Shown: piece after piece, positions 15,756-38,140 of the stretch
How positions within the stretch are numbered: the stretch's first letter is position 1
Layout of the letters: the number at the start of each line of letters is the position of its first letter
From: Desulfobacteraceae bacterium
GTDB lineage: Bacteria; Desulfobacterota; Desulfobacteria; Desulfobacterales; Desulfosalsimonadaceae
DNA length: 43,204 bases
Reading direction: 5' to 3'
NCBI GenBank assembly: GCA_011390465.1
Contig: JAABSH010000030.1
Location: 1 to 43,204, forward strand
Program-made: the position numbers and the translations under genes
The notes under the pieces: generated by a model
What the model saw: the letters and a program-made list of their open reading frames with translations, nothing else
Told to the model about the DNA's origin: nothing
The model's database searches: none

Positions 15756-16689
15756 GGAGGAACCCTCCCTTCACCTTTTTGCTCATCTTTCCGATCCATG
15801 CGGGGGCGACCAGCGCAGCAAAAACAAAAAGTGCCGTAACCAGTTTAAGATCATTGGGATTCAGTCCCCAGCGCAGGGCAATGGCAATCAGGAGCCGGAA
15901 CAGAATGGTCCCTAAAATGACCCCCGTAAGGGTAAGTCCGATACTGGTCTTCCCCACCAGTGCTTCGCCGATGATAATACTTGCAAGCCCCCAAACCATC
16001 ATACCGATCCCCATCTGGACATCCGCAAACCCCTGATACTGAGCCAGCAGAGAACCGGCAAGCGCCACCAGTCCGTTTGCCATGGACAGACCGAAAACGA
16101 TCATGGTCTTATTATTTACCCCTTGCGCCCGAACCATCTGCGGATTGCTTCCCGCGGCTCTCAGGGCAGTACCGGCGTGCGTAAAGAGAAAAGCGCACAG
16201 AATACAGGCAATCAGAATAGCAATGATTCCGCTTGTAGCAAAAACCGCAAGATCCCCGACAGGCACCTGCCAGCCGAGAATATCCACCTTTGACGCAGAG
16301 CCGGTCATTTTTGCCAGAATCCCCTCCATGCCCGTTGAAATGGTGGTTACATCCAGAAGCGGTATATTGCTCTTTCCCATCACCCGCAGATTGATAGAAT
16401 ACAGAGCTGTCATCATCAGAATCCCGGACAGGATCTCCTGAATTTTAAACCGGGTATAAAGGATTCCGGTAATTGCGCCTGCCAGCGCACCGCCCAGAAT
16501 GGATACCGACACTGCCAGCCAGGGCGAGTATCCTTGAACAATCATCACCGCTGAGATTGAAGCGCCCAGGGTAATGGAACCGTCGACGGTGATATCGGTA
16601 AACCGGATCATCCGGAAACTGATGAACATGCCCAAAGACAGCAAAGAAAGAATCAATCCCATGGTAAATGCGCCGATGATAAGACTCAT
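15742..16689 (-). CDS. ABC importer permease (BPD_transp_2), TrpY-like
   Basis: 315 aa inner-membrane permease with the typical opening LIIGAFTMGLILSLLSLGMF, the FRMIRFTDITVDGSITLGA motif seen in permeases paired with ABC_sub_bind receptors, and a late AAGSNPQMVRAQGV loop that contacts the ATPase. About eight or nine helices. GGAGGTG lies eight bases before the ATG. It overlaps the STAS gene by 4 bp upstream (16686-16689) and the ATPase by 14 bp downstream, so the three are translationally coupled. Likely imports an aromatic amino acid or a related small molecule; not certain. Confidence 0.92.
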   Translation of the reverse strand: MSLIIGAFTMGLILSLLSLGMFISFRMIRFTDITVDGSITLGASISAVMIVQGYSPWLAVSVSILGGALAGAITGILYTRFKIQEILSGILMMTALYSINLRVMGKSNIPLLDVTTISTGMEGILAKMTGSASKVDILGWQVPVGDLAVFATSGIIAILIACILCAFLFTHAGTALRAAGSNPQMVRAQGVNNKTMIVFGLSMANGLVALAGSLLAQYQGFADVQMGIGMMVWGLASIIIGEALVGKTSIGLTLTGVILGTILFRLLIAIALRWGLNPNDLKLVTALFVFAALVAPAWIGKMSKKVKGGFLHAES

Positions 16690-17903
16690 GATAACACCTC
16701 CGGATTTTCCAAAGCACCAAACCAGCAGGCGCCCCTGACCAGGGCACTTTCTCCCAGTCCGACAGCCGGACGATCATCATCGGTCAGATGCATGACTGCC
16801 AGCGGCGGCGGGCCATTAAAAAATTTCGCAATTGCAATTTCAAGATCAATTTTGCCGTTTGGCAGGGGCTGATAGGGAAAAACTGCCCCATGCATATGAG
16901 TCGCCACATCAGGCGCAGACGGCATCGACGGAAGCCGGGTCGCTCCGGCTCGGGAAACAATCCCGGTGATCAATGCCTGCTGGTGGGAATACGACCGTTC
17001 ACCGCAGAAAGTGAGCCAGTCCCGGACTTCCGGAAACGTCATATCTCTGTTTTCCCTGATCCGGCCGGGAGAACGGATCAGCGCGGTTCCTACCAGCCCT
17101 TCAATTTCCCCCAGTACAACGAATCCGGCGGGTTTGCCTTCGATTTGATCCAGAATGTGTTTGAGTAGTGCGGAAGCAGTGTAAAAAGGAATCGCTTTAG
17201 TCGGAGCAAAACGGAGCAGGTGTGCCATCTCTCCTTTACAACTCAATGCCTGGACACACTGCATCCGGGGGAGGAACTGCTTTTCAGCAATCAGATAATC
17301 CGGCGGTGCCTGTTCATCCGGGGGCTGATAAACCACATTTCCAGCCGCAGCCAGAAATTCGCCGAAATGATCCCGGGCCTCTTCAAATGTCCCGGCAGCG
17401 CTTCCGATGCCTAACGCGCAAATATTTTTCGAAAAGGTCAGCATCTGCACCCTTTCTTTTTCCACCACCTCCCAGGGCCGCCAGTCGGCAGGTTCAGCCG
17501 CCGACAGTCGGGCATTTTCGTTTAAAACAAACGATTGAATCCCGCTATTTTCCGCAGCGTCCGTTTCACCACCCACTCCGGCAGCCGGCAGATCTTCCGG
17601 GAGCCCCTTTTTCAGCCACATCTGAAAACCCGAGGTGCTCAATGTCTGTTCGACAAAAGCGGTGGGATTTGAAACAGCGAAACTGCCCTGGACAATGCTG
17701 AGCTCTTTATACACCATTAAAAGCGCCCGAATCCCGGCAGAACTTAAGAAATCCATCTCCGACGCATCAATGACCAGATGATGCTTTCCTTCACGGATCT
17801 GGCGCAGGATTGTATCCGTAAAATGCTCAGACCAGGAGGCGTCCAGCCGCCCTTTGGGCTGTATGAGCAGGTATTTGCCCCGTTGTTCGAATTCAATTTG
17901 CAT
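16686..17903 (-). CDS. STAS domain fused to an uncharacterised C-terminal domain (paralogue A)
   Basis: 405 aa; start at ATG 17903 with AGGA upstream, since the longer frame adds non-homologous residues. Residues 1-110 are a STAS (SpoIIAA/anti-sigma-antagonist) domain with the phospho-acceptor region FLSSAGIR (Ser54/Ser55). The remaining ~290 residues form a domain with the landmarks GIGSAAGTFEEARDHFGEFL, LSCKGEMAHLLRF, GEIEGLVGTALIRSP, and the close DDDRPAVGLGESALVRGACW. I do not recognise a described function for it. A divergent paralogue with the same layout is at 30356-31504. It sits between the binding protein and permease of one importer operon, which suggests that transport and partner-switching regulation are linked. 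No membrane segment. Confidence 0.8.
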   Translation of the reverse strand: MQIEFEQRGKYLLIQPKGRLDASWSEHFTDTILRQIREGKHHLVIDASEMDFLSSAGIRALLMVYKELSIVQGSFAVSNPTAFVEQTLSTSGFQMWLKKGLPEDLPAAGVGGETDAAENSGIQSFVLNENARLSAAEPADWRPWEVVEKERVQMLTFSKNICALGIGSAAGTFEEARDHFGEFLAAAGNVVYQPPDEQAPPDYLIAEKQFLPRMQCVQALSCKGEMAHLLRFAPTKAIPFYTASALLKHILDQIEGKPAGFVVLGEIEGLVGTALIRSPGRIRENRDMTFPEVRDWLTFCGERSYSHQQALITGIVSRAGATRLPSMPSAPDVATHMHGAVFPYQPLPNGKIDLEIAIAKFFNGPPPLAVMHLTDDDRPAVGLGESALVRGACWFGALENPEVLS

Positions 17904-17947
17904 AGCATATCCTGTTATCCGGTTATCCACTTCAATTCCGAGAGGTC

Positions 17948-18006
17948 GGCACGGTGTCCGCCCCTGCAAAGTTTATCTCACGCCTCGTAGAGCAGGCCAC
18001 CGTGCC
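17948..18006 (-). other. Inverted repeat between binding protein and STAS gene
   Basis: GGCACGGTG (17948-17956) pairs perfectly with CACCGTGCC (17998-18006), and further CTGC/GCAG pairing is possible inside. It lies in the 169-bp gap after the binding-protein stop. There is no T run. It may shield the binding-protein mRNA or be partly terminating. Confidence 0.4.
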
Positions 18007-18072: not shown

Positions 18073-20103
18073 TTATTTTTCAGAAACATATAGCTCCGCC
18101 TGTTCCCGCATGGCTTCTGGAACCCTCAGTTTATACTTTCTTGCCAGCTCCGGGTTAAGAATAAACTTCTCAGATCGGGTATTGTTAAAAGGAATATCTT
18201 TTGGATGTTCCCCCCTTAAAATACGGACCACTTTTTCACCGGCTTCCCGGCCGGCGTCAAAATAATCTCTTGCCAGACAAACGACACCGCCGTATTTCAT
18301 CTGGTCACTGTCAAAGACATAGACCGGCAAATCATTTTCCGACGCTTTCCGGGCAATAAGGGCAAATCCGGGCCGCGTCAGATTATCCACCACCTGGGCC
18401 ACCACTTGAATATCCGCTTTACAAAGTTCAATCGCGGATTGCGCCACATCCGTACTGGAGGTAACCGGTATAGAAATGAGCGCTAAACCTTCCTTTTTCA
18501 GCGCTGCCTGAAACCAATCGCGATAAAGCACACTGTTGATTTCCGCAGGCGTGAAAAGTGTGCCCACCCGCCGGGCATTCGGCAGGGTTTGGCGGATTAT
18601 CCGCGCCATGCCGGCAAAAGGGGAACGGGTGCTGATGCCGGTCACATTCGGCAGATGGTCTGTTTCGCTTTTTCCCGCACCAGCCCTCACGCCGTCTGCC
18701 ACGCCGGTAAAAACGATCTTGGTTTCTTCACCCGCCTGCCGCAGTGCCGCCTGCAGTGTTGGCGTTGATATCACCATCAACAAGTCGACATGGTCCGCTT
18801 TGACGGTAGACATGATACTTGAAAGGGTGGACATATCCCCCTGGGCATTATAAATTGTTATGTTATAATCCCTGCCTTCCAGATAACCGGCCTGGTGAAT
18901 GCTTTCAAGCAGTCCGTCCCTGCACTGTTCTGCAAATTCCGTTTCACTGTAAAGCGCCATGGCCAGTTTAAAAGGACGGGATCGGGCACCAGGTGCCATA
19001 GAGAATCCGAAATTCTGCCGGCCGGTTTTGCCCGGCTCAGAATCCGTTGCCATCTGCTTTTCTGCTGCCTGTTTTTCCTGCCTGGCCAGCAATTCTTTAA
19101 CAGACGGGCGCATCGTCCACGCACCCGTCAAAGTGGCAAGCACATCATGGTTAAAACCCAGCTGTTCGGGAATCTTGTTTTCAATTCGAAAAGCAGACGG
19201 TTTCTTCCCTTCAAATATGGCAACGGCAATGTCTGCCGTGTATTGCCCCACGGTATAATAATCCGCCCCCAGCCCGAAAAGCGCTCCTTTTTCCGCGTCC
19301 GAGGGACTGTTGGTAAAAACCGGAATACCGGCCTGTTTTGCCAGACTGACGATCAGCCCGGCAGATGCGATGGCAACGCTGTCTCCCCCGATCCACACGG
19401 CATCCACATTCCTGGCAAACAGGGAACGGGCGGCTTCGGAAACCTCGGAGGTATTGGCCGCATTGGCCTCGACAAGTTCCACGCCCAGGGTTTGGCAAGT
19501 TGCCCGTGCAATATCAAGGCAGGCTTCCGAGCATTGTTCCCCGGGATTCCAGACAACGCCAAGACGTTTGAGATCGGGATTCATTTCATAGGCAATGCGG
19601 ATGGATTGTTCAACCGGCTGAAATGTTCCGACACCGGCAATATAGGACGGATGCTGGTGCGGTTCCGGGCCGGTAATGCCCACGCCCGTGCCAAAGGGAT
19701 CGGTTACGGCTCCGAAAACATGCGTCTTTTTAGTGGCTTTATTGGCTTTGGCAAAGGTCTGCAACGCAACAGTGCTGGAGGTGATAACCATATCATAGGG
19801 GCTGTTGGCAATATCTCTGGCCATGGCATTGGCCGTTGCGTAATCCCCCTGGGGATTATAAATACGGATGTTCTTCCCGTCCGGCGCCCGAAATCCCTCT
19901 TCTTCCAATCGATCGACAATCCCGGCAACGTGGGAATCCAGAACACCGGTGGAGGCAATCTGCATAATAGCGATGGAAGGATAGACACTTTTATTTTCCT
20001 CCACATACCCTGCCCGCTGCTCCCGGTCCGACATCAAAAGGATAAAGGATGTTGCCACAATAAGACTAATTGCCAGCCACAAGTGTTTGATGATATTTTT
20101 CAT
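18073..20103 (-). CDS. Tandem ABC_sub_bind (TrpX-like) substrate-binding protein
   Basis: 676 aa, about twice the family's usual ~320. A single N-terminal hydrophobic segment (about 8-25) serves as signal peptide or anchor. Two consecutive receptor domains follow: the first about 40-345 (IAIMQIASTGVLDSHVAGI, YNPQGDYATANAMA, VITSSTVALQTFAKA), the second about 385-665 (LAMALYSETEFAEQCRDGL, YNAQGDMSTLSSIMSTV, VISTPTLQAALRQ). The matching blocks show an internal duplication, joined by a charged linker (about 345-380). It is the receptor of the importer encoded downstream and would present two ligand sites per polypeptide. ABC_sub_bind receptors are known for tryptophan/tyrosine; the ligand here is unknown. 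A consensus-like promoter lies 79 bp upstream. Confidence 0.88.
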   Translation of the reverse strand: MKNIIKHLWLAISLIVATSFILLMSDREQRAGYVEENKSVYPSIAIMQIASTGVLDSHVAGIVDRLEEEGFRAPDGKNIRIYNPQGDYATANAMARDIANSPYDMVITSSTVALQTFAKANKATKKTHVFGAVTDPFGTGVGITGPEPHQHPSYIAGVGTFQPVEQSIRIAYEMNPDLKRLGVVWNPGEQCSEACLDIARATCQTLGVELVEANAANTSEVSEAARSLFARNVDAVWIGGDSVAIASAGLIVSLAKQAGIPVFTNSPSDAEKGALFGLGADYYTVGQYTADIAVAIFEGKKPSAFRIENKIPEQLGFNHDVLATLTGAWTMRPSVKELLARQEKQAAEKQMATDSEPGKTGRQNFGFSMAPGARSRPFKLAMALYSETEFAEQCRDGLLESIHQAGYLEGRDYNITIYNAQGDMSTLSSIMSTVKADHVDLLMVISTPTLQAALRQAGEETKIVFTGVADGVRAGAGKSETDHLPNVTGISTRSPFAGMARIIRQTLPNARRVGTLFTPAEINSVLYRDWFQAALKKEGLALISIPVTSSTDVAQSAIELCKADIQVVAQVVDNLTRPGFALIARKASENDLPVYVFDSDQMKYGGVVCLARDYFDAGREAGEKVVRILRGEHPKDIPFNNTRSEKFILNPELARKYKLRVPEAMREQAELYVSEK

Positions 20104-22240: not shown

Positions 22241-22702
22241 TCAATTACAGAGACTAATAAAACAACCGCCACCACCACCACCACCGGATGATTTTTTGGC
22301 GGGGACGGTTACATAATCAAGATCAAAATCGGAAACAAGGTCGAACTCCTTAGACAAGTCCAAATCATCCCCCCACTCTTTTTTTTTTATCGTTAAATAT
22401 TCTGTGTCGCCATTGAGGACTGCTGCAACAGGCTCTCCTTCAGCATCATAAAACCCAAAACCTCCAATTGCAGTATATATTTGCCCGTCTTGACGAATAC
22501 CTAAGTTAAAAAGGAGGAAACTATAAAAAAAACCTTGAGCTTTAATCTCTGCGTGAATTTTGCCATCAAGTCGATAGATGTATACACTTACACGTTCGTT
22601 TCCTTCAAAAGAAAATTGTTTGAAGACATCATTTTCGACATCATCGGAGAAAGCAGTTTGGGGGATAAGAAAAATTAAAAAAAATAGGATTATCTTTTTC
22701 AT
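22241..22702 (-). CDS. Exported protein with C-terminal poly-Gly/Cys tail
   Basis: 153 aa from ATG 22702, chosen because GCAGGAG sits at the right spacing (a GTG two codons earlier touches it). A clear signal peptide (KKIILFFLIFLIPQTAFS-DD) is followed by a small beta-rich domain of unknown type. The C-terminus is SSGGGGGGGCFISLCN. Poly-glycine followed by Cys near the end recalls C-terminal sorting or anchoring tails (GGGGGGCFIATAAYGS-type and SYNERG-CTERM-like) found in Desulfobacterota and relatives, so processing or lipid/thioether anchoring at the cysteine is possible. AT-rich, likely part of the same acquired island. Confidence 0.6.
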   Translation of the reverse strand: MKKIILFFLIFLIPQTAFSDDVENDVFKQFSFEGNERVSVYIYRLDGKIHAEIKAQGFFYSFLLFNLGIRQDGQIYTAIGGFGFYDAEGEPVAAVLNGDTEYLTIKKKEWGDDLDLSKEFDLVSDFDLDYVTVPAKKSSGGGGGGGCFISLCN

Positions 22703-22880
22703 TGTCACTCCTGCAATTTAGGTTTTTATTATGGTTCAAAAGTCGTGTGATAATGCGCGAGTTGACCGGCGAACGTGTGGCTATTGCAATATACAGTGAG
22801 ATGCAGATTTTTCCGTGAACACTGTTGTCTATTTTTTTCTGATAACCTTGCTGTTATCTCAACTTAATATATTTTCTATA

Positions 22881-24246: not shown

Positions 24247-26202
24247 TTATCCCGAATACCGGATCATCATCATGGTGATATCATCTGCCTGGGGGGCACC
24301 GTCTGCAAACTGATGGATTGAATCCATAATGCGTTGGAGTGCATCCTTTATTCCCATATCTGCGGAAAACGTCATGTCCTTTTCCAGCCTTTTTTCGGTA
24401 AAGAGCTCATCTTCAAGGTTCATGGCCTCAGTCACGCCGTCTGTATATAAAAACAGGCTGTCCCCCGGCAGAAGCCGGAGAGACTCGCCCTCATACACGA
24501 CGCCCGGCATGGCCCCGGCCACCAGGGACCTGGCCCGGGGCAGCCATTTCACCGTCCCGTCCTTTTTGACGACCAGTGGCGGGTTATGGCCGGCATTGGC
24601 GTATTGGATGTCTCCGGTTTTTGTATTCAAAATGCCGCAAAAAAGCGTGACAAACATGCAGGCATCGTTGTCTTCGGCCAGCTCTTCATTCACATGGGAC
24701 AAAATATCCTCTGGTGTAATCGCTTCTTTCGCATACGTCTTGATCAGGGTTTTGGTCACGGCCATGAACAATGCGGCCGGGACCCCCTTGCCGGAAACAT
24801 CTCCGATCACAAAACAAAGCAGATTTTCGTTGAGCTGAAAAAAATCATAAAAATCCCCCCCCACTTCTCTGGCCGGCGTAATTGTGGCATAGAGGTCGAA
24901 TTCATCCCGGGTCGGAAACGGCGGAAATGTCTTTGGCAGAATCGACATCTGGATATCGTGAGCAATTTTCAACTCGCTCTCCATCCGTTCCCTGGCAGCG
25001 GTTGTTTCTGTGAGCTGCCGGATATGCTCTTTTAGCGAATCCCGCATCATCCGAAAATCGCGGGTCAGAAAACCCACCTCATCTTTTGAGCGGGCTTCCG
25101 GCAATTGGGCCTCAAAATCACCGGCCGCGATCTTGTCCGAGGCCGCTGCAAGTGCCCGGATGGGATTGGTAACCGACTTTGCGATAAACACGATCGCCGT
25201 CATCAGCAGGATAACCCCGGCAAGCCCGATGCCCGCCATGGTCATCGTCAACGTCCGGATATCTGAAAAAAGCTCGGCTTCCGGAAAAACCACCCCGATA
25301 CTCCATCCTACATGCCGCAACGGGGCGTAATACATCCAGCTTTGAACACCGTCGATGGTCTGGAACGGAATAAAACCGGATTCGCCCGCGGCCATCCGCC
25401 GGCCGATAGTCCTTAATTCCTGACTGCCCCGTTCTTCCGCCAGGCTGAAAAGGGACTCGTTCATGATGATGTCCTGGCGGGGATGAGCCAGAAACGTGCC
25501 GTTTCTGGAAAGCAAAAACCCATACCCGGTCTTCAGGACCTTTATGCCGGATACAATGTCTGTCAGCCGTTTAAGGGATATATCAGCGGTCACAACACCG
25601 GCAAACTGTTTCTGCCGGTTTTGCATTTCATAAAACGGCACGGAACATGTTGCCATTAAAATGTTGCCCCCGCCCTCATCATAATAGGGTTCACTCCATT
25701 CGGTTTTTCCCAGTTCCCTGGGGATCTGATACCAGTCCCGGCATGTATAGTCATAGCTCTCTTTGAGATCCACAAACGCCGTGCCGTTTTTCGTCCGGTA
25801 AAAATACGGGGCATACCGTTCCTGGAAACGGCCATCAGGCGACGGTTCAACCGCAACGGCAGATCCGAATATATCCGGATGAGACAAAACCGATGCCTCA
25901 ACAAAATCAAGAAGGTGGGTGTTGTTAAACGGGAATATTTCCAACGACCGGGCCATGGATTCCGTCACAGCCGTAACGGATGTAACGACTGTTTCCACCC
26001 GGCCGACAGTGGCTGACACCAGGTTCCGGGCATACGCTTCCATTTTAGTGGTGATCATACACCGGGCCTGATAATAATTATAGCCGAGCGTGGCCGCAAA
26101 AATCAGGATGGTAAAAATGGAAAAAACCACTCCCAGACGCACTGATAAGCGGTGCCGCCATCGGATCACCCTTTTTTCAGGACGGGCATCACTTCCCGGC
26201 AT
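24247..26202 (-). CDS. Membrane sensor PP2C/SpoIIE-type phosphatase (dCache-HAMP-SpoIIE)
   Basis: 651 aa. First membrane helix about 22-44, a large periplasmic dCache sensor (about 45-315; blocks RDWYQIPRELGKTEWSEPYYD and KTGYGFLLSRNGTFLAHP are typical), second helix about 318-342, HAMP (SVTNPIRALAAASDKIAAGD), a coiled linker (ERMESELKIAHDIQMSILP) and the SpoIIE/RsbU PP2C domain with metal-ligand motifs EVGGDFYDFF, GDVSGKGVPAALF, YTDGVTEAMN and QADDITMM. It would dephosphorylate a STAS antagonist in response to a periplasmic ligand. It overlaps the binding-protein gene by 14 bp and is last in an operon with RsbW-like and STAS proteins. The binding protein without a transporter is the obvious candidate ligand-presenting partner. 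Confidence 0.9.
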   Translation of the reverse strand: MPGSDARPEKRVIRWRHRLSVRLGVVFSIFTILIFAATLGYNYYQARCMITTKMEAYARNLVSATVGRVETVVTSVTAVTESMARSLEIFPFNNTHLLDFVEASVLSHPDIFGSAVAVEPSPDGRFQERYAPYFYRTKNGTAFVDLKESYDYTCRDWYQIPRELGKTEWSEPYYDEGGGNILMATCSVPFYEMQNRQKQFAGVVTADISLKRLTDIVSGIKVLKTGYGFLLSRNGTFLAHPRQDIIMNESLFSLAEERGSQELRTIGRRMAAGESGFIPFQTIDGVQSWMYYAPLRHVGWSIGVVFPEAELFSDIRTLTMTMAGIGLAGVILLMTAIVFIAKSVTNPIRALAAASDKIAAGDFEAQLPEARSKDEVGFLTRDFRMMRDSLKEHIRQLTETTAARERMESELKIAHDIQMSILPKTFPPFPTRDEFDLYATITPAREVGGDFYDFFQLNENLLCFVIGDVSGKGVPAALFMAVTKTLIKTYAKEAITPEDILSHVNEELAEDNDACMFVTLFCGILNTKTGDIQYANAGHNPPLVVKKDGTVKWLPRARSLVAGAMPGVVYEGESLRLLPGDSLFLYTDGVTEAMNLEDELFTEKRLEKDMTFSADMGIKDALQRIMDSIHQFADGAPQADDITMMMIRYSG

Positions 26203-27172
26203 TGATTTCTCCTGTAAATTCAGCGTAGTCGGGTTTTTCGGCGATCAGGCCGCTGTTTAAAAGAAAATCCGCCACCGTATCAAAACCGAATTTTTTCAAT
26301 CGGGTCGAACCCGGCATTCTGCCGTCGGACATAATGAGATCCTGCATTCTTGCCAGCATCCATTTCTGGTGCGTCCGGTTGGCTGAAATTTTGGCTTCCC
26401 GCATGTATCGGATGACAATATCCAGGGCTTCGTCCGGATGCGAGAAGGCATAATCCCAGCCTTCAAACGATGCCCGGGCAAAGGCGGCGGCGAGTTCCGG
26501 GTTTTTCTTATACTCGGTTTCCAGCATGTAGAGACCGTCTTCCGGAAAATTCTGCCCGTACTTCCACAGGGGAAAAATATCGAGTTCATCCGGATTGATC
26601 CCGGTATTGAGAATGGTGTGATACTCATTATACCACATGGCCGAAGCCACATCCACACCGCCCCGCAAAAACAGATTAACAGTGTACGCCTGCGGGATTT
26701 CCCTGACCTGCAGGCCGTATTCGGAAAAAAAAGCCCGGGGCGGGACAGCCAGATCACCACTCCAGAGCCCCACTTTTTTGCCGTTCATTTCCGAGGGGGT
26801 GCGAATATTGCTGGATTTTTTTGCCACCAGCATCATGGATGACCGGGGGACAACCTGGGACAGATTCACCAGGCCGCCGACCGCCTCATATTGACGGATG
26901 GCCGTGGTAAGCCACAAAACAGCAAAATCAACCAGGCCGTCTTTCAGGTATTCCGGTGCCGAGCAATCCGGCCCGCCTTTTAAAATGACCATGTCGATGC
27001 CGTGTTTTCGGTAAATGTTCTTTTCCGCTGCCACATAATAGCCTGCAAACTGTGCCTGCGGGCTCCAGTGAGGAACCATGGCACAAGATGTCAGGCCGGC
27101 ACCCTCATTGGCGCTCAGGGGTAAGGCCTGCAAAAAAATTAGAAACAGGGGCAATGTAAAAAACTTGTTCAT
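26189..27172 (-). CDS. NMT1/THI5-like periplasmic binding protein (no cognate ABC genes here)
   Basis: 327 aa from ATG 27172; the longer frame to 27211 would run into the RsbW gene and has no ribosome-binding site. Signal peptide NKFFTLPLFLIFLQALPLSA. The mature protein shows the NMT1/SsuA/THI5 pattern: VPHWSPQAQFAGYYVAAEKNIYRKHGIDM, GLVDFAVLWLTTAIRQYEA, and SEMNGKKVGLWSG. Members bind thiamine-precursor pyrimidines, sulfonates or purine-like compounds. No ABC permease or ATPase of this type is encoded nearby. Its 3' end overlaps the dCache phosphatase gene by 14 bp, so it may deliver ligand to that sensor rather than to a transporter (inference). Confidence 0.85.
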   Translation of the reverse strand: MNKFFTLPLFLIFLQALPLSANEGAGLTSCAMVPHWSPQAQFAGYYVAAEKNIYRKHGIDMVILKGGPDCSAPEYLKDGLVDFAVLWLTTAIRQYEAVGGLVNLSQVVPRSSMMLVAKKSSNIRTPSEMNGKKVGLWSGDLAVPPRAFFSEYGLQVREIPQAYTVNLFLRGGVDVASAMWYNEYHTILNTGINPDELDIFPLWKYGQNFPEDGLYMLETEYKKNPELAAAFARASFEGWDYAFSHPDEALDIVIRYMREAKISANRTHQKWMLARMQDLIMSDGRMPGSTRLKKFGFDTVADFLLNSGLIAEKPDYAEFTGEINAGK

Positions 27173-27185
27173 AATGCAACGTCTC

Positions 27186-27620
27186 TTATGAATGGGAAGG
27201 ACCATCGTCAAGATTGACTGTCAGTTGAAGAACATTCTTATTGTTCAACCTGCGCCACTGTGCATGATCGGTAAAATTACGGATCAGATGCACCCCCAGC
27301 CCGCCAATCTCCCTTTGTTCCAGTTCCACGGACGTATCCGGTTCGGGAACCGACAGCATATTAAATTCCGGGCCGGAATCCATAATTTCCAGGACAAACG
27401 TATTTGAAGTGGAAAAACAATCTAGTTCCACCTCCCCCTTACCGTCTTTAAACGAGTGGGTACAAATATTGACAAACGCCTCTTCCGCGGCAAGACAAAG
27501 TCCGTTCCGCTTTGCGGGGGCGACACCGGCAGCAGCGGCATTGTCTTCAACAAATGCGATCACCGCCGGCAGACTGTCCAGCAATGCCGGAAAGCGTGTG
27601 GTTGAAGTGTCACGGGTCAT
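27186..27620 (-). CDS. RsbW/SpoIIAB-like serine kinase (anti-sigma-type HATPase)
   Basis: 144 aa, the normal size for HATPase_c_2 switch kinases. ATP-site boxes are complete: N-box LAAEEAFVNICTHSF (Glu47, Asn51), G1 MDSGPEFN and G2 GGLGVHLIRNF. It would phosphorylate the STAS antagonist encoded just upstream. Its ATG shares one base with the stop codon of that gene (TGATG), the standard translational coupling of such pairs. No sigma factor is encoded in the window, so the downstream target may not be a sigma factor. Confidence 0.92.
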   Translation of the reverse strand: MTRDTSTTRFPALLDSLPAVIAFVEDNAAAAGVAPAKRNGLCLAAEEAFVNICTHSFKDGKGEVELDCFSTSNTFVLEIMDSGPEFNMLSVPEPDTSVELEQREIGGLGVHLIRNFTDHAQWRRLNNKNVLQLTVNLDDGPSHS

Positions 27621-27955
27621 CAGCCTGCCGCTTCCAGCGCTGCTTCCAATGAGTCATAAATACTGAAAACAGTACCGAAACCTGAAATTTCAAGAACTTC
27701 CTGCACCGACCCCCTGGCATTGGCCAGCAAGAGCTTACCGCTTTTCCCCTTAAGGGATTTTGCGGAGGCCAGTATCACGCGCAGCCCGGCACTGCTGATA
27801 TACTCCACAGCGCCAAGATCCAGCACGAGGCACAATTTCCCCTCCCCGATTAAATCGGAAATTGATGATTCAAAAGACGGGGCTGTCATCGCATCAATTT
27901 TTCCGGACGCGGAGATCACGGTTGCCCTGCCCTCCGGTCTTGTTTGAATATCCAT
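27620..27955 (-). CDS. STAS-domain anti-anti-sigma-type antagonist
   Basis: 111 aa, single STAS domain (SpoIIAA/RsbV-like). The strand LVLDLGAVEYISSAGLRVI contains the phospho-acceptor SSAG (Ser54/Ser55). Together with the RsbW-like kinase at 27186-27620 and the SpoIIE phosphatase at 24247-26202, all three parts of a partner-switching cycle are in one operon. It follows the NCS2 permease by 29 bp. Confidence 0.93.
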   Translation of the reverse strand: MDIQTRPEGRATVISASGKIDAMTAPSFESSISDLIGEGKLCLVLDLGAVEYISSAGLRVILASAKSLKGKSGKLLLANARGSVQEVLEISGFGTVFSIYDSLEAALEAAG

Positions 27956-27984
27956 TTTAAATCACCTCATATGATTATATTTTA

Positions 27985-29700
27985 TTAATGATCCAGATGA
28001 AAACGCAAAACTGCTTTTCCCGCCTTTTCCTCACAACTCATGCAGTCGGCGGTGCGCCGAATGATCTCTGCAGAAAGCCGGGTTACGGCGGCATCATCAG
28101 CCAGCAGTTCTTCGGCCGTAGGCTTTTCAGCGGAAAAATCCAGGGGCCGGCCATCATAGGTGATGACCATATCCAGATTAAACTCATCAAAGGCAATTTC
28201 CATTTGAATATCATTTTCCGTGAGCCGCGACACAACGCAAGTCTCAAAAAATTCCGTGACAATGCGGGTGGCCCGGTCGATAATTTCAGGACGCGCCCCC
28301 CATTCCCGGCCGCAGGTGTCCATGAATTCATATATGCTCTGACCGGAAGCCACGTCAGGTTTGAGAATCAATGTCTTTTTGGAAGCAACGCCGATGCGAA
28401 AAATAATATTTAAGATCACAACCGATATGGTTGCCAGAGACAGCGAGGAACTGAAAACCGGCTGAATCCATCCCGGCACGCCTGCATAAACCCCCGGCAC
28501 CATATCCACGCTCAGGCCCAGAATGATGGAGATGCCCACCACCAGCATTTTACGGGCATCCAGCATTCGGGACGTGATAATCTGAAGCCCGACCACAATC
28601 ATGAAGCTCACCGCAAATACCAGGGTTGCGCCGATTACCGGCGCAGGCATAATGACAAATATGGCAGCAAACTTGGGTAAAAATGCCAGAACAAACAGCA
28701 GCCCCCCTACTGACCAGGCGATCCGGCGGCTGGTGGCCCCGGTGGCAAGGGATAATGCCACATTGCTGGATGAGGTGGACTGGCCCATGCCGCCCAAAAG
28801 ACCCGACCCCATGGCACTTGCAGCGTCAGCAAGCATCCCGCCGCTGACGGAATCCATATCCATGCGATTCCAGTCCGCATCATTGATTTTCTGGCAGGTG
28901 ACCAGATCGCCAATAGTTTTGAGAGAAGAGCAAAGAGACGCCACAACAAACGGCAGTATCAGCCCCCAGTTGATGTGCCACTCATGAAAAACCGGCACCG
29001 GAAGGGCAAAATACCCGGCCGATAAAAACTTCTCAGTCTGCTCCGGTGTAAAAAGGCCCAATACATAGGACAGAAAGTATCCGGTGACCATGCCGATGAT
29101 AATATTGTAAAGACGCAACTTTTTTTTGCCCCAGATGGTGGCGGCACAGATTACCGAAAGCGTGGCCACAGCCACGATTAAATCATGGGCCTTGATGGTG
29201 GGATCGGTTTCATTTAAACCTAAAAAACGGGGCATGGCAAAGGGAATGACCGTGATTCCCACCATGGCGACCACGGTGCCGGTGACTTCCGGCGGGAAAA
29301 ATTGACGAAGGCGCTTAACCACCCGGGAAAACAAGGCCTCAAAAAAAGCCCCGAAAAAGGTACCCGCAAATACAGCTCCCAGGCCCGCTGTTTTTCCGGC
29401 CAGGATTGATGCAGACAAAAAAGACGGCCCGCACACCTGGGGACACAGGTAGCCGGACCCGATGGGACCTTTTTTCAGGGACTGAAGAATGGTGCCCAAT
29501 CCGCCTGCAATCATTGACATCTGGACCATGGCAGCCGCCTGAGACATGTTCCCGCCCGATTCCTGAACAATGACCACGGGAAAAACAAACGCCAGGGTCA
29601 TCACGGAAATGTGTTCCAGCCCCAGAATGATTAACTCATAAAAACAAGGAGCCTCATCAACACCGTAAATCAGATTGGACGGTTTTTTTGCCAAACGCAT
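27985..29700 (-). CDS. NCS2 xanthine/uracil-type permease with C-terminal degenerate HATPase domain
   Basis: 571 aa, about 120 longer than usual NCS2 permeases. Residues 1-440 are the permease: start KKPSNLIYGVDEAP, QSLKKGPIGSGYLCPQ, and the NCS2 signature SNVALSLATGATSRR. From about 445 a soluble tail follows (SGQSIYEFMDTCGREWG): it resembles an RsbW-type ATPase, with an N-box-like helix RIVTEFFETCVVSR and G1-like YDGRPLDF, but no GG-x-G box, so ATP binding is doubtful. It ends with a DCMSCEE cysteine motif. The ATG at 29700 directly abuts AAAAAGGAG; the TTG two codons later (29692-29694) has ideal spacing and matches the homologues' MAKKPSN start, so translation may begin there. It opens a partner-switching operon and probably imports a purine. 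Confidence 0.88.
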   Translation of the reverse strand: MRLAKKPSNLIYGVDEAPCFYELIILGLEHISVMTLAFVFPVVIVQESGGNMSQAAAMVQMSMIAGGLGTILQSLKKGPIGSGYLCPQVCGPSFLSASILAGKTAGLGAVFAGTFFGAFFEALFSRVVKRLRQFFPPEVTGTVVAMVGITVIPFAMPRFLGLNETDPTIKAHDLIVAVATLSVICAATIWGKKKLRLYNIIIGMVTGYFLSYVLGLFTPEQTEKFLSAGYFALPVPVFHEWHINWGLILPFVVASLCSSLKTIGDLVTCQKINDADWNRMDMDSVSGGMLADAASAMGSGLLGGMGQSTSSSNVALSLATGATSRRIAWSVGGLLFVLAFLPKFAAIFVIMPAPVIGATLVFAVSFMIVVGLQIITSRMLDARKMLVVGISIILGLSVDMVPGVYAGVPGWIQPVFSSSLSLATISVVILNIIFRIGVASKKTLILKPDVASGQSIYEFMDTCGREWGARPEIIDRATRIVTEFFETCVVSRLTENDIQMEIAFDEFNLDMVITYDGRPLDFSAEKPTAEELLADDAAVTRLSAEIIRRTADCMSCEEKAGKAVLRFHLDH

Positions 29701-29775
29701 CTCCTTTTTGGCTATCCGCAGACACCGCTTGCTCTTGGCAACCGCTCAACTTCGGCTTGCCCTAACCCATCTTTT
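29701..29775 (-). promoter_or_regulatory. Structured leader of the NCS2 operon, conserved in a decayed copy
   Basis: On the minus strand, a GGCAA/TTGCC hairpin with inner CCG/CGG pairing is followed by GCAAGCGGTGTCTGCGGATA and the ribosome-binding site. A related segment, GAAGCTGTGGCTGCGGATA, stands before the pseudogene copy at 34121-34150 together with an identical GCCAAAAAGGAGATGCG. It may be a regulatory leader. I could not fit it to a named riboswitch. Confidence 0.35.
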
Positions 29776-30355: not shown

Positions 30356-31504
30356 TTAACACGAGCAATAAATCCAAACCCGGAATTTTGATATACGGGT
30401 CTCCGGTTCTATGGTATAAATATTTTGGTAGTCATAGGGAAAAGACAATTGGTGAACAATGTCGTCAGGATCTGAGAAGTTATCAATTCCTTTTAGTGTT
30501 GACAAAACAATAGCGTGCCCAGATATATATTGTTTGATATTGGCTGATTCTGAATTATTCGTTACTATCCTTCCCACGCCCACCATTGGTTCCCCACCAG
30601 TAAATCTTTTCAGGATTTTTTGGTTCTGTATAAAATCCTGAGGCGTATTCATATAACCCATCTGTCCTTCAAAACTGTCAGCAAAAATCACAAACGAAAA
30701 ATTTTCTGAAGTATTTGTGGGACGGCAGGCCTTGATTATTTCATTAACTACCGTCGCTATAGCAATCGGTCCATGATCGCAAGCGTAAACTGAATATGCC
30801 GGAGAGCCTTTCCATCCTACTGCGCTAAGGGCATAAAACTGGCCCATTCCAGATGTACGGGTAAGAAAAAAATCCGGTTTGCAGATATCGTTCGATGGCA
30901 CTACACCAGCAACATCGCCTAAAGAAATAAAAAGACCGGCATTTCTTTTTGCTGCGCTTAGACTTTCCCCGTTCCCCCCTTTACCAAATCCTATACCAAA
31001 GTTCCTAAAACTAAAGGGCTTAAAGGATTGCCTTGAATCCAAATCGCCGTTTCCGGCAGAGGGGTAACCCCAGATTTGTATTGTACTCCGATGCTCGGGA
31101 TAATAGCGGATGTCGTATAAATTATGGTAAACTGTCTTGAAGTCCGGACTGGAAGTGCTATCATTACTTTTAGCAATTTTAGATGTCCTAAAATCCGGTT
31201 CCCGGGATATCAGAAATACGCGGTCCAAGCCGGCAATTTGAAGCACATTTGCTACAGGTTCGGTAAGCCCGCATAAAGTCAGCCGCCCCCCATTGAAACG
31301 CAATTTCTTTTCGATTATAATCAGTGACCGAATTCCGGCGCTTGACATGTAGTCAACGCTACTTAAATCAAGAGTCCAGCCCTCTTTTCCCGTTGGGTTG
31401 AGGTGAGCGATTTGGGCTTCAAACGCTGCAGCACCGCTGCTATCTAAACGTCCCGCCAGCGATATTACAGGTATTTCTTTTTCATATTGAATATTGACTC
31501 TCAT
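30356..31504 (-). CDS. STAS domain fused to an uncharacterised C-terminal domain (paralogue B)
   Basis: 382 aa. N-terminal STAS domain with YMSSAGIRSLI phospho-acceptor. After a Ser/Thr-rich linker, the C-terminal ~270 residues match those of the protein at 16686-17903 by several blocks: FGIGFGKGGNGESLSAAKRN (versus GIGSAAGTFEEARDHFGEF), LSAVGWKGSPAYSVYACDHG (versus LSCKGEMAHLLRF), SFVIFADSFEGQMGYMNTPQ (versus GFVVLGEIEGLVGTALIRSP). Paralogy is therefore seen, but strongly diverged. Function unknown. It follows a zinc alcohol dehydrogenase by 15 bp, so the two are one operon. Lower GC than the main operons. AAGGTG precedes the ATG closely. Confidence 0.75.
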   Translation of the reverse strand: MRVNIQYEKEIPVISLAGRLDSSGAAAFEAQIAHLNPTGKEGWTLDLSSVDYMSSAGIRSLIIIEKKLRFNGGRLTLCGLTEPVANVLQIAGLDRVFLISREPDFRTSKIAKSNDSTSSPDFKTVYHNLYDIRYYPEHRSTIQIWGYPSAGNGDLDSRQSFKPFSFRNFGIGFGKGGNGESLSAAKRNAGLFISLGDVAGVVPSNDICKPDFFLTRTSGMGQFYALSAVGWKGSPAYSVYACDHGPIAIATVVNEIIKACRPTNTSENFSFVIFADSFEGQMGYMNTPQDFIQNQKILKRFTGGEPMVGVGRIVTNNSESANIKQYISGHAIVLSTLKGIDNFSDPDDIVHQLSFPYDYQNIYTIEPETRISKFRVWIYCSC

Positions 31505-33618: not shown

Positions 33619-34120
33619 TCAATGATCATTACTCGGCAATGGTTCCCCAATCCTTAGCAGACGGACATCCCTCAACCGCTTCAGCATTTTGGATCCCTTT
33701 TGTTCCCCCCGAGGGCCCGCCACAATCTTTCCGGTATCAGGATCAATGATATCCCCAACCGCATTGACGGCCACAATGGCCCCAACAAGGCCTCCGTTCG
33801 GCAATTTTATCAAACTGGAACCAAGACCGGACTTCATGGCCCGGTCCATACCCAGCAGCTTACCGACGGTTGCGCCTGTGCCGGCGCCAATGGTTTTGAG
33901 AGAAGAGCAAAGAGGCGCCACAACAAACGGCAGTATCAGCCCCCCGTTGATGTGCCACTCATAAAAAAACGGCACCGGAAGAGCAAAATACCCGGCCGAT
34001 AAAAACTTCTCCGTCTGCTCCGGAGTAAAAAGGCCCAATACCTAACCTGATTAACGCATAAAAACGAGGAGCCTCATCAGCACCGTAAATCAGATTGGAC
34101 GGTTTTTTTGCCAAACGCAT
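33619..34120 (-). pseudogene. Chimeric pseudogene: NCS2 permease fragments joined to a P1-type peptidase fragment
   Basis: Reading on the minus strand from ATG 34120, the first ~25 codons copy the NCS2 permease start (RLAKKPSNLIYGADEAP). About 186 codons are then missing, and after a frame change the sequence resumes at permease residues ~213-264 (GLFTPEQTEKFLSAGYFALP to SSLKTIG), which are about 95% identical at DNA level to 28900-29046. At the KTIG junction it switches to about 88 residues of a P1-family (DmpA/S58) peptidase: AGTGATVGKLLGMDRAMKSG, then NGGLVGAIVAVNAVGDIIDP. Neither gene can be functional. Confidence 0.8.
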
Positions 34121-34180
34121 CTCCTTTTTGGCTATCCGCAGCCACAGCTTCTTCTTCCCGGCTACTGGAAACTATCCAAC

Positions 34181-36805: not shown

Positions 36806-38140
36806 TCAAGCGTCAAAAACACCACCCTGCCCGCAAATCATCTCTGCGGCAGCTTGAACCCGTGCCATAACAGCTTCCCCATCAAGGCTTAAAAGACGGT
36901 AATCACGCACCAGGGCCCGGCCCCCCACAAACACATCCGACACGTCAGATCCGGATGCCGCATACACCAGATGGGAGGCCGGATGGTACATGGGCGTCAG
37001 GTGGGGTTTGGCCGTGTCAATAATGATAATATCCGCCTGTTTTCCGGGCTCCAGGGAACCCATCACATCTTTCAGGCCGATGGCGGTGGCGCCATTGATG
37101 GTGGCCATGCGAATCACGGTCTGCGCGTTCATTACCGTGGGATCATTTTCCATTACTTTGTTCAGCTTGGCGGTACAGTCCATTTCCGCAAATAAATCCA
37201 AATTGTTGTTGCTGGCGCTCCCGTCTGTTCCCAATCCGACAATAACGCCCCGGGCCATCATCTGCCGCACCGGCGCAGTACCGGACGCCAGTTTCATATT
37301 ACTTTCCTGGCAGTGGGCCACGGCCACTTTTCGTTCCGCCAGCAGCCGAATATCGGTTTCATCCACCCATACCCCGTGGGCAACCAGGGTGCGGGCATCC
37401 AGAACCCCCAACTCATCAAGATACTGTACCGGGGACAGGCCAAAATCCGCCTTGCACTGGTCGGCCTCGGCCCGGGTTTCGGCCACATGAATCTGGAACA
37501 GGACCTGCAATGCAGTTGCGGCCTGCTTGGCCTTCCTGAGTGTATCCGCTGAACAGGTGTAGGGTGAGTGGCAGAAAATGGACGGTGTAATCAACGGGGA
37601 GCAGCCTTTCCATTTTTCCACAAAAGCCACGGCCGCCGCCACATTATCAGCCGGATTCAGCACCCCCGGGGCCGGAAAATCGATCACTCCCTGGGCCAGC
37701 ACCGCCCGCATGCCCGTCTCCAGTACCGCGGATGCGACGTCGTGTTCATAAAAATATCCGTCGCAGCAGCAGGTGGTGCCGCTCAACAGCATTTCCGCGC
37801 AGGACAGCAGGGTGCCGGTGCGCGCGGTGTCGGGAGACAAATGCCGGTGTTCCGCCGGAAAAATATAATGGTTCAGCCAGGTTTCAAGGGGCAAATCATC
37901 GGCCAGTCCCCGGAACAGCGACATGGGCAGGTGGGCGTGGCAGTTCACCAGTCCGGGCATGATAATGCCGCCCCGGGCGTCCACCGCGTCTTTTGCCGCA
38001 TACGAATCAATGGGTTTTGACCGGGACGCCACCTGCACGATCTTTCCGTCCCGGATGCCCACAATACCGTCGGCAATAATTTCAAAATCCGGATTCACGG
38101 TCAGCACCGTGCCGTTATAAATGACCCGGTCCAGCCCCAT
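36806..38140 (-). CDS. mtaD: Amidohydrolase, 5'-methylthioadenosine/S-adenosylhomocysteine deaminase type
   Basis: 444 aa from ATG 38140, whose A is shared with the TGA of the RND gene (TGATG); a TTG one codon earlier is less likely. Motifs: NCHAHLPMSLFRGLADDLPL (metal site and typical MtaD block), FHIHVAET-like QIHVAETRAEADQ, VAHGVWVDE, GLGTDGSASNNNLD. These deaminate MTA, SAH and adenosine; related TRZ/ATZ members act on other amines, so the exact substrate is a family-level guess. Translational coupling to a lipid-type RND exporter is unusual. Adenine deaminase follows. Confidence 0.85.
   Translation of the reverse strand: MGLDRVIYNGTVLTVNPDFEIIADGIVGIRDGKIVQVASRSKPIDSYAAKDAVDARGGIIMPGLVNCHAHLPMSLFRGLADDLPLETWLNHYIFPAEHRHLSPDTARTGTLLSCAEMLLSGTTCCCDGYFYEHDVASAVLETGMRAVLAQGVIDFPAPGVLNPADNVAAAVAFVEKWKGCSPLITPSIFCHSPYTCSADTLRKAKQAATALQVLFQIHVAETRAEADQCKADFGLSPVQYLDELGVLDARTLVAHGVWVDETDIRLLAERKVAVAHCQESNMKLASGTAPVRQMMARGVIVGLGTDGSASNNNLDLFAEMDCTAKLNKVMENDPTVMNAQTVIRMATINGATAIGLKDVMGSLEPGKQADIIIIDTAKPHLTPMYHPASHLVYAASGSDVSDVFVGGRALVRDYRLLSLDGEAVMARVQAAAEMICGQGGVFDA

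Follow-up and report, generated by a model that had tools for sequence, protein, structure and literature searches.

Five genes lie on the minus strand between positions 24247 and 29700 of the window (the whole 43,204-nucleotide stretch of Desulfobacteraceae DNA analysed): an NCS2-fold permease, a STAS protein, an RsbW-like kinase, a periplasmic binding protein and a dCache–HAMP–SpoIIE phosphatase. Open reading frame positions and Pfam and NCBIfam scans agreed with the original prediction on all five genes, their positions, strand and domains. Gaps under 30 bp or overlaps had also been predicted; permease and STAS genes are spaced by 29 bp and the STAS and kinase genes do overlap at TGATG, but the ‘14 bp between’ binding protein and phosphatase genes proved to be a 14 bp overlap rather than a gap. 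The binding-protein start is probably the ATG at 27172, 13 bp past the kinase. No sigma factor was seen in the locus. The features, all on the minus strand, are as follows.

28399..29700, minus: NCS2-fold transmembrane domain of the permease, residues 1–434 (PF00860, phmmer to UraA, AlphaFold2)
28918..28920, minus: Lys261 codon, at the UraA Glu241 position, substrate site, TM8 (alignment to UraA)
28765..28767, minus: Ser312 codon, at the UraA Glu290 position, TM10 (alignment to UraA)
27985..28398, minus: C-terminal RsbW/SpoIIAB-fold tail of the permease, residues 435–571, ATP motifs lost (hhalign, fold search, motif counts)
28252..28254, minus: Glu483 codon, retained N-box Glu of the tail (motif counts)
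28156..28158, minus: Tyr515 codon, at the G1-box Asp position of active kinases (motif counts)
27620..27955, minus: SpoIIAA/RsbV-like STAS-domain protein, phosphorylation-motif Ser-Ser present (domain scans, alignment)
27186..27620, minus: RsbW-like serine kinase, N, G1 and G2 boxes intact (PF13581, motif counts)
26189..27172, minus: periplasmic binding protein, NMT1/SsuA-like (domain scans)
24247..26202, minus: sensor phosphatase with dCache_1, HAMP and SpoIIE (PPM) domains (domain scan)

PF00860, the sole Pfam match to the 571-residue permease, covers residues 22–402 (E 1.6e-51), and only NCS2-type NCBIfam models matched, over the transmembrane part. The protein matched UraA (8omz and 3qe7; phmmer E 4e-15 and 7e-14) in an alignment spanning the whole transmembrane domain, which was modelled by AlphaFold2 with a pLDDT of 87, and it thus has the NCS2/NAT fold. 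Related permeases were collected with a genome scan that was blind to any lacking its two peptide patterns and kept 80 of 187 relatives; removing permeases more than 90% identical took the set from 96 to 77. UraA binds uracil through Glu241 and Glu290 (PMC5539350). At these positions the tail permeases have Lys (75/77; Lys261 here) and mostly Ser (54/77; Ser312 here), and the ‘purine-type’ label originally given to the permease is not supported. The fold and PF00860 are shared with the nucleobase symporters UraA and UapA, which differ from it at these two residues and in the soluble RsbW-like tail. A nucleobase is an unlikely cargo, and a small organic anion is probably a better fit. A purine operon was also considered and rejected: none of the five recurring neighbour families typed, which were among the larger ones (sigma-54 activator, outer-membrane efflux, ABC ATPase, aminotransferase and Cache sensor), consisted of purine genes. 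A TRZ/ATZ aminohydrolase lies near 3 of the 77 tail-permease loci. Look-alikes of xanthine/uracil permeases may transport something else.

The tail of 137 residues matched no Pfam or NCBIfam model in the permease scans. When tail-only and kinase-only profiles were compared, hhalign gave homology to RsbW-like domains at 96% (E 2e-9), and the 15 best PDB matches in a fold search with the tail were all SpoIIAB, RsbW or mycobacterial SigF anti-sigma entries. These two results carry the homology claim, as the tail-only profile reached stand-alone kinases weakly (best E 8e-5) and a PDB sequence search with it returned nothing relevant. The tail is thus an RsbW-like domain, as had been predicted, and not an unrelated fold.

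The ‘N-box-like and DG-box-like’ segments described for the tail are there but degenerate. The N-box Asn, four residues past Glu483, is lost in 77/77 tails (Thr487 here), the G1 Asp is replaced by Tyr in 74/77 (Tyr515 here), and the glycine lid is gone, its three glycines being retained in 1, 3 and 1 of 77 tails. Stand-alone kinases of the loci keep both the Asn and the Asp (27/27 each), and the kinase of the window matches HATPase_c_2 (PF13581, E 5.8e-26). The tail therefore shares fold and sequence homology with RsbW and SpoIIAB, but lacks their intact ATP-binding N, G1 and G2 boxes; from its sequence it looks ATP-dead and should not bind ATP. What is kept is the N-box Glu (75/77; Glu483 here) and the G1 Gly (76/77). 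In RsbW, Glu49 hydrogen-bonds Ser56 of RsbV, and Asp42 makes a further RsbV contact (PMC7340262); mapped by alignment, Glu49 falls on the tail N-box Glu, while the Asp42 position is Arg or Lys in 54/77 tails. Residues W467, E506 and the C-terminal H571 are invariant in 69 aligned tail sequences.

The remaining switch components appear intact. The STAS protein matches PF01740, and the Ser-Ser that marks an antagonist with a phosphorylatable serine is present in all 40 aligned short STAS proteins of tail-permease loci. Among 38 aligned phosphatases, Asp450 and Asp468 are invariant and Asp641 nearly so, as in PPM enzymes; we take these SpoIIE residues to be metal-binding. The best NCBIfam match of the phosphatase was SiaA, at 80.7 of 700 bits, far under the cut-off. 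Twenty of the 38 linked phosphatases carry 5TM-5TMR_LYT, and in all 19 of those found by a motif holding a first Arg, a second Arg follows 27 residues on. In BtsS, Arg72 and Arg99, with the same spacing, bind pyruvate; since LytS sensors in general show strong conservation of such a pair, it is a weak clue to the ligand. The binding protein (NMT1, PF09084; N-terminus signal peptide-like by eye) occurs in 3 of the 77 loci, no ABC partner was found among the typed genes adjoining it, and it is a probable co-sensor.

Among non-redundant tail loci, 48 had 3 kb flanks, and partner-switch genes were found within 5 kb at 29 of these, compared with 0/30 control NCS2 loci flanked to the same extent (Fisher p 6e-9) and 0/36 controls in all. 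This count left out the 29 of 77 tail loci with less than 3 kb on either side; with all flanks included, 45/77 loci had at least one partner gene. The control threshold was the looser one (E 1e-3, against 1e-10 for tail loci); the control loci came from one phylum and the tail loci from many, 6 of the 36 controls had less than 3 kb on one side, and 7, found by PF00860, gave no match to the permease profile. Four of the 29 linked loci rest on one kind of gene, L106 having a long STAS protein only, and counting only SpoIIE, kinase and short STAS proteins left 28/48 linked. Thirty-one SpoIIE genes lay within 1 kb of the tail permease and one beyond 3 kb. As the tail is conserved and the linkage recurs but was not seen at control NCS2 genes, the tail is not a chance feature.

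The operon composition thus recurs well beyond the source genome, in many gene orders. Some loci (L060, L063, L069 and L129) show phosphatase, STAS protein and permease only, so that the tail is the only RsbW-like domain detected in them. Close relatives without the tail (L039, L150 and L152) showed no linkage, while L037, also without the tail, keeps a SpoIIE neighbour; a related tail type exists without partner neighbours. Whether permease operons generally lack STAS, RsbW and SpoIIE neighbours, which would have counted against the original prediction, thus received a mixed answer, with no partner gene within 5 kb at 19/48 loci. Presence is patchy, with matches in 2 of 11 genomes of the window’s own genus. 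Outside the circuit, two neighbour families recurred at six or more loci: ABC ATPases, at 13 loci and a median distance of 3.6 kb, and a Cache sensor protein, at 6.

Tail permeases were also found in methanogens. Of 15 tail carriers in one methanogen family, 6 have a single PF01740 match and a single PF13581 match above cut-off, both adjoining the permease, in one of them on a 2.56 Mb contig. Contamination was rejected as an explanation for the archaeal copies: formylmethanofuran dehydrogenase subunit B is found above cut-off on the contig of L074, and several archaeal carriers are single contigs of 2.5–3.9 Mb. In the order of Methanoculleus, 26 of 31 fetched loci (part of 44 places) had no partner genes nearby at the same threshold; adding the previously known L120 and L133, which have them, gave 7/33 linked. 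Two further loci of this order, L224 and L245, have long proteins within 5 kb with weak, below-threshold kinase matches (E 7e-4 and 2e-8). In genome G505 a STAS–SpoIIE–kinase trio persists although the tail permease is missing, the site being in other respects syntenic with G501; the trio can thus occur without this permease.

Partner switching is known mostly as transcription control, in which an RsbW-type protein normally shuts off sigma factors. That the tail permease gene adjoins switch genes in many bacteria and some archaea suggests that here the switch controls transport directly instead. We propose, at about even odds, a partner-switching circuit with a membrane transporter, probably not a nucleobase carrier, as its target. 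The sensor phosphatase (through dCache here, perhaps aided by the binding protein) would detect an extracellular ligand and remove phosphate from the STAS protein, which the RsbW-like kinase would rephosphorylate. Because it keeps the STAS-facing Glu and should not bind ATP, the kinase-dead tail may bind unphosphorylated STAS protein without consuming it, and docking or release would alter the transport rate, upwards or downwards. More tentatively, this may be a transporter class widespread among anaerobic bacteria and methanogens, which a SpoIIE–STAS–RsbW circuit switches post-translationally by way of the pseudokinase tail; small carboxylates may be both signal and cargo, and in archaea, which lack sigma factors, the transporter may be the missing target of the trio.

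Alternatively, the permease could be the input, a transceptor whose substrate state sets STAS sequestration by the tail, with the target encoded elsewhere (perhaps a sigma factor in the case of bacteria). A dead RsbW domain would be well suited to soaking up STAS protein, and the five bacterial carrier genomes counted each have several STAS, RsbW-like and SpoIIE matches. We consider this unlikely, as a Cache-type or 5TMR-LYT phosphatase already serves the circuit as dedicated membrane sensor, neither the recurrent ABC ATPase nor the Cache sensor protein is an obvious output, and the six archaeal genomes lack a second above-cutoff PF13581 match.

It is similarly improbable that the tail is a structural or dimerization domain, the adjoining circuit acting through expression only or being linked for another reason. 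UraA is a dimer (PMC5539350), RsbW dimerizes through helix 1 and strand 1 (PMC7340262), and the many tails without partner neighbours, including the related type, would fit. Against this, the domain fused to the permease is a homologue of a component of the adjoining circuit, tail-less NCS2 genes, close relatives included, did not show the linkage, and control of transcription through sigma factors is unavailable in archaea, where no bona fide ones had been identified at the time of PMC2686161. A still-active kinase or nucleotide sensor with unusual residues is very improbable: the retained N-box Glu and G1 Gly speak for it, but the loss of Asn, Asp and lid glycines, in tails whose stand-alone counterparts keep Asn and Asp throughout, led to its rejection.

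Literature searches found no described system of this composition, as the original prediction had supposed. The circuit shares its three components with SpoIIAA–SpoIIAB–SpoIIE and RsbV–RsbW–RsbU, with STAS serine, kinase motifs and PPM residues conserved, but differs in the apparently ATP-dead RsbW-like domain fused to a transporter and in that its locus showed no sigma factor. SiaABCD is a partner switch that acts on a diguanylate cyclase; its output is non-sigma, like that proposed here, and its SiaA is the best, though far sub-cut-off, NCBIfam match of our phosphatase, but the output differs and SiaB ranked only 21 in the tail fold search. The composition mirrors SulP/SLC26 transporters, which combine a UraA-type (SLC4/23/26) fold with a single extramembrane partner-switch domain (PMC8256260, PMC5539350) and whose STAS domain is described as not fully explored (PMC8256260); SLC26 proteins carry STAS in cis, whereas here the transporter bears the fold of a STAS-binding partner and STAS is a separate protein. 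If the proposed gating is right, a transporter with a dead anti-sigma domain would place membrane transport directly under partner-switch parts. The tail permease is also a candidate, testable target for the archaeal ‘anti-sigma’ proteins left open in 2009: Anderson et al. stated that it is not possible to determine the targets of the Methanomicrobiales SpoIIAA/AB/IIE trio, the same trio as at archaeal tail-permease loci, and searching their text for the term ‘permease’ gave no match (PMC2686161). Judged from the locus tags, the trio of Methanoculleus marisnigri in that paper has the order STAS–SpoIIE–kinase, as do several archaeal loci here.

ORF and domain scans resolved five genes in one tight minus-strand cluster in the window, in agreement with the original prediction of a five-gene cluster carrying a partner-switch set:
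27985-29700, minus strand, permease
27620-27955, minus strand, STAS protein
27186-27620, minus strand, RsbW-like kinase
26189-27172, minus strand, periplasmic binding protein (start corrected from the mechanical ORF)
24247-26202, minus strand, dCache-HAMP-SpoIIE phosphatase
The permease is the single PF00860 match in this genome. Pfam and NCBIfam scans of it matched no family on residues 435-571, the C-terminal soluble domain that we call the tail. Tail-only and kinase-only alignments nevertheless matched each other with an hhalign probability of 96% (E 2e-9, 113 columns). An AlphaFold2 tail model (69 aligned tails; pLDDT 92) has the element order strand-helix-helix-strand-strand-helix-helix-strand-strand, and its 15 best PDB matches in a fold search were all SpoIIAB, RsbW or mycobacterial SigF anti-sigma entries (1tid: TM-score 0.73, E 1e-5). 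Both matches bear out the RsbW-like domain predicted on the permease.

Within the phylum, 15/395 genomes contained the tail; 15 of the 17 matches lay inside open frames of 567-603 residues and the other two in shorter frames. Presence is patchy: in the window's own genus, 2/11 genomes have a permease match. Across a collection of 84,980 species, a single pattern scan yielded 187 relatives, of which 80 were kept; their record titles include Deltaproteobacteria, Syntrophales, Sporomusa, Pelotomaculum, Armatimonadota, Bacteroidales and methanogens, and many are MAG contigs. From these and further genomes' loci, 77 non-redundant loci were typed.

We compared the 77 tails with 27 kinase domains outside permeases. 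The N-box Asn was found in 27/27 kinases vs 0/77 tails, the G1 Asp of 27/27 kinases was Tyr in 74/77 tails, and the three lid glycines occurred in 24, 27 and 27 of 27 kinases vs 1, 3 and 1 of 77 tails. The N-box Glu was kept in 27/27 kinases and 75/77 tails. The N-box-like and DG-box-like segments originally described in the tail are degenerate, with this Glu kept but the Asn and the Asp gone. Through alignment, the N-box Glu maps to RsbW Glu49, which directly contacts the RsbV serine in the RsbV–RsbW crystal structure (PMC7340262), so the tails keep the residue facing the STAS serine while losing ATP-binding residues. At the position of RsbW Asp42, another RsbV contact, 54/77 tails have Arg or Lys; W467, E506 and the C-terminal H571 are invariant (69/69 aligned tails).

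Partner genes (SpoIIE, STAS or RsbW-like kinase) were sought within 5 kb at the 48 of 77 loci flanked on each side by 3 kb or more. SpoIIE was found at 24, STAS at 27, kinase at 15, SpoIIE with STAS at 23 and all three at 12. The neighbourhood check proposed with the original prediction came out mixed, as 29/48 loci had any partner gene and 19/48 had none. SpoIIE genes thin out sharply with distance from the permease, with 31 in the first kb and 1 beyond 3 kb. Among 36 control NCS2 loci from the same phylum, there was no STAS or SpoIIE match, and kinase-like matches were confined to the inside of four permeases with a second tail type; for controls with 3 kb flanks, linkage was 0/30 vs 29/48 tail loci (Fisher p 6e-9). 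Partner-gene order varies widely. The window has permease-STAS-kinase-binding protein-phosphatase, whereas locus L053 has permease-binding protein-phosphatase-STAS-kinase. Other examples are methanogen MAGs (L066, L073, L074) with STAS-phosphatase-kinase-permease, Syntrophales and relatives (L060, L063, L069, L129) with phosphatase-STAS-permease, and five loci (L062, L067, L071, L087, L116) with permease-phosphatase/kinase fusion-STAS.

The anatomy of operon and tail, and the linkage to partner genes, are solid. In the mechanism we propose, the STAS protein would dock on the permease tail and transport would thereby be gated, a reading whose chances we put at about even. Our search of the open-access literature turned up no permease, whether NCS2 or of another family, that is controlled by partner switching.

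The predicted purine specificity fared less well. Lys261 and Ser312 align to UraA Glu241 and Glu290, which are functionally essential and hydrogen-bond uracil (PMC5539350). The Glu241 position holds Lys in 75/77 tail permeases, and also in L037, L039, L150 and L152, four relatives that lack the tail, vs Glu in 15/29 control NCS2 proteins; because of these replacements, a nucleobase is an unlikely substrate. A TRZ/ATZ-type aminohydrolase at 36806-38143, ~7 kb upstream of the operon, belongs to a family also found at two other tail-permease loci (L079, L124), and counts as a weak point for a purine link. Sensors of the 5TM-5TMR_LYT type occur in 20 of the 38 linked phosphatases, with Cache-type sensors among the others. 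In the 19 of these 20 picked by a motif already containing the first Arg, a second Arg lies at +27 (19/19), Cys at +38 (17/19) and Ser at +41 in 0/19, matched by spacing only to Arg72, Arg99, Cys110 and Ser113 of the pyruvate sensor BtsS (PMC10653868). This gives a hint that their signal may be a small carboxylate, a weak one because the Arg pair is highly conserved across LytS sensors.

In a midpoint-rooted permease tree, the 76 tail permeases used form one clade (support 0.977), which also includes L037, tail-less yet retaining its SpoIIE neighbour. Tail-less L039, L150 and L152 form the next branch (join support just 0.50). In a further group of eight, seven permeases (L040, L041, L042, L159, L160, L161, L164) carry a second, also degenerate, RsbW-like tail with the N-box Asn replaced by His; these had no STAS or SpoIIE matches and no partner neighbours in the stretches fetched. 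The tree fits a possible early fusion with later losses.

Within the archaea, the tail was present in 15/50 genomes of the family of G484 (record titles Methanosarcinales/Methanothrix), which, going by a sister record, is Methanotrichaceae. Six genomes (G484, G487, G501, G502, G503, G539) have, genome-wide, a single PF01740 match and a single PF13581 match over the cut-off, and in each genome the two lie next to the permease; the G503 copy sits on a 2.56 Mb contig, and the G502 permease frame is broken into two parts. PF01740 occurred in 13/15 tail carriers of this family vs 14/35 non-carriers (Fisher p 0.004, uncorrected for kinship). A counter-example, G505, has all three partner genes but no tail match, and its flanks match G501 minus the permease gene. 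In the order of G483 (Methanoculleus), presumably Methanomicrobiales, 30/232 genomes had the tail, with partner genes near 5/31 fetched loci (7/33 counting L120 and L133). In archaea having the linkage, the tail permease is a candidate target of the archaeal SpoIIAA/AB/IIE trio, whose targets Anderson et al. 2009 (PMC2686161) left open. Three archaeal loci (L231, L232, L242) have tandem tail permeases, one tail being shortened or diverged.

Elsewhere in the window, two more proteins have an N-terminal STAS domain (30356-31504, which shares the operon's strand and lies upstream of it, and 16686-17969), with no Pfam family on their other ~280-310 residues. A 676-residue protein (18073-20103) has two ABC_sub_bind matches within one chain, and a small protein without a Pfam match (22241-22708) has a signal-like N-terminus and ends in seven consecutive Gly, then CFISLCN. 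At 33885-34156, ~4 kb upstream of the intact copy, lies a broken fragment of the operon's permease gene, whose 160 bp and 109 bp pieces are ~94% identical to 28908-29067 and 29628-29736, which suggests recent duplication followed by decay.
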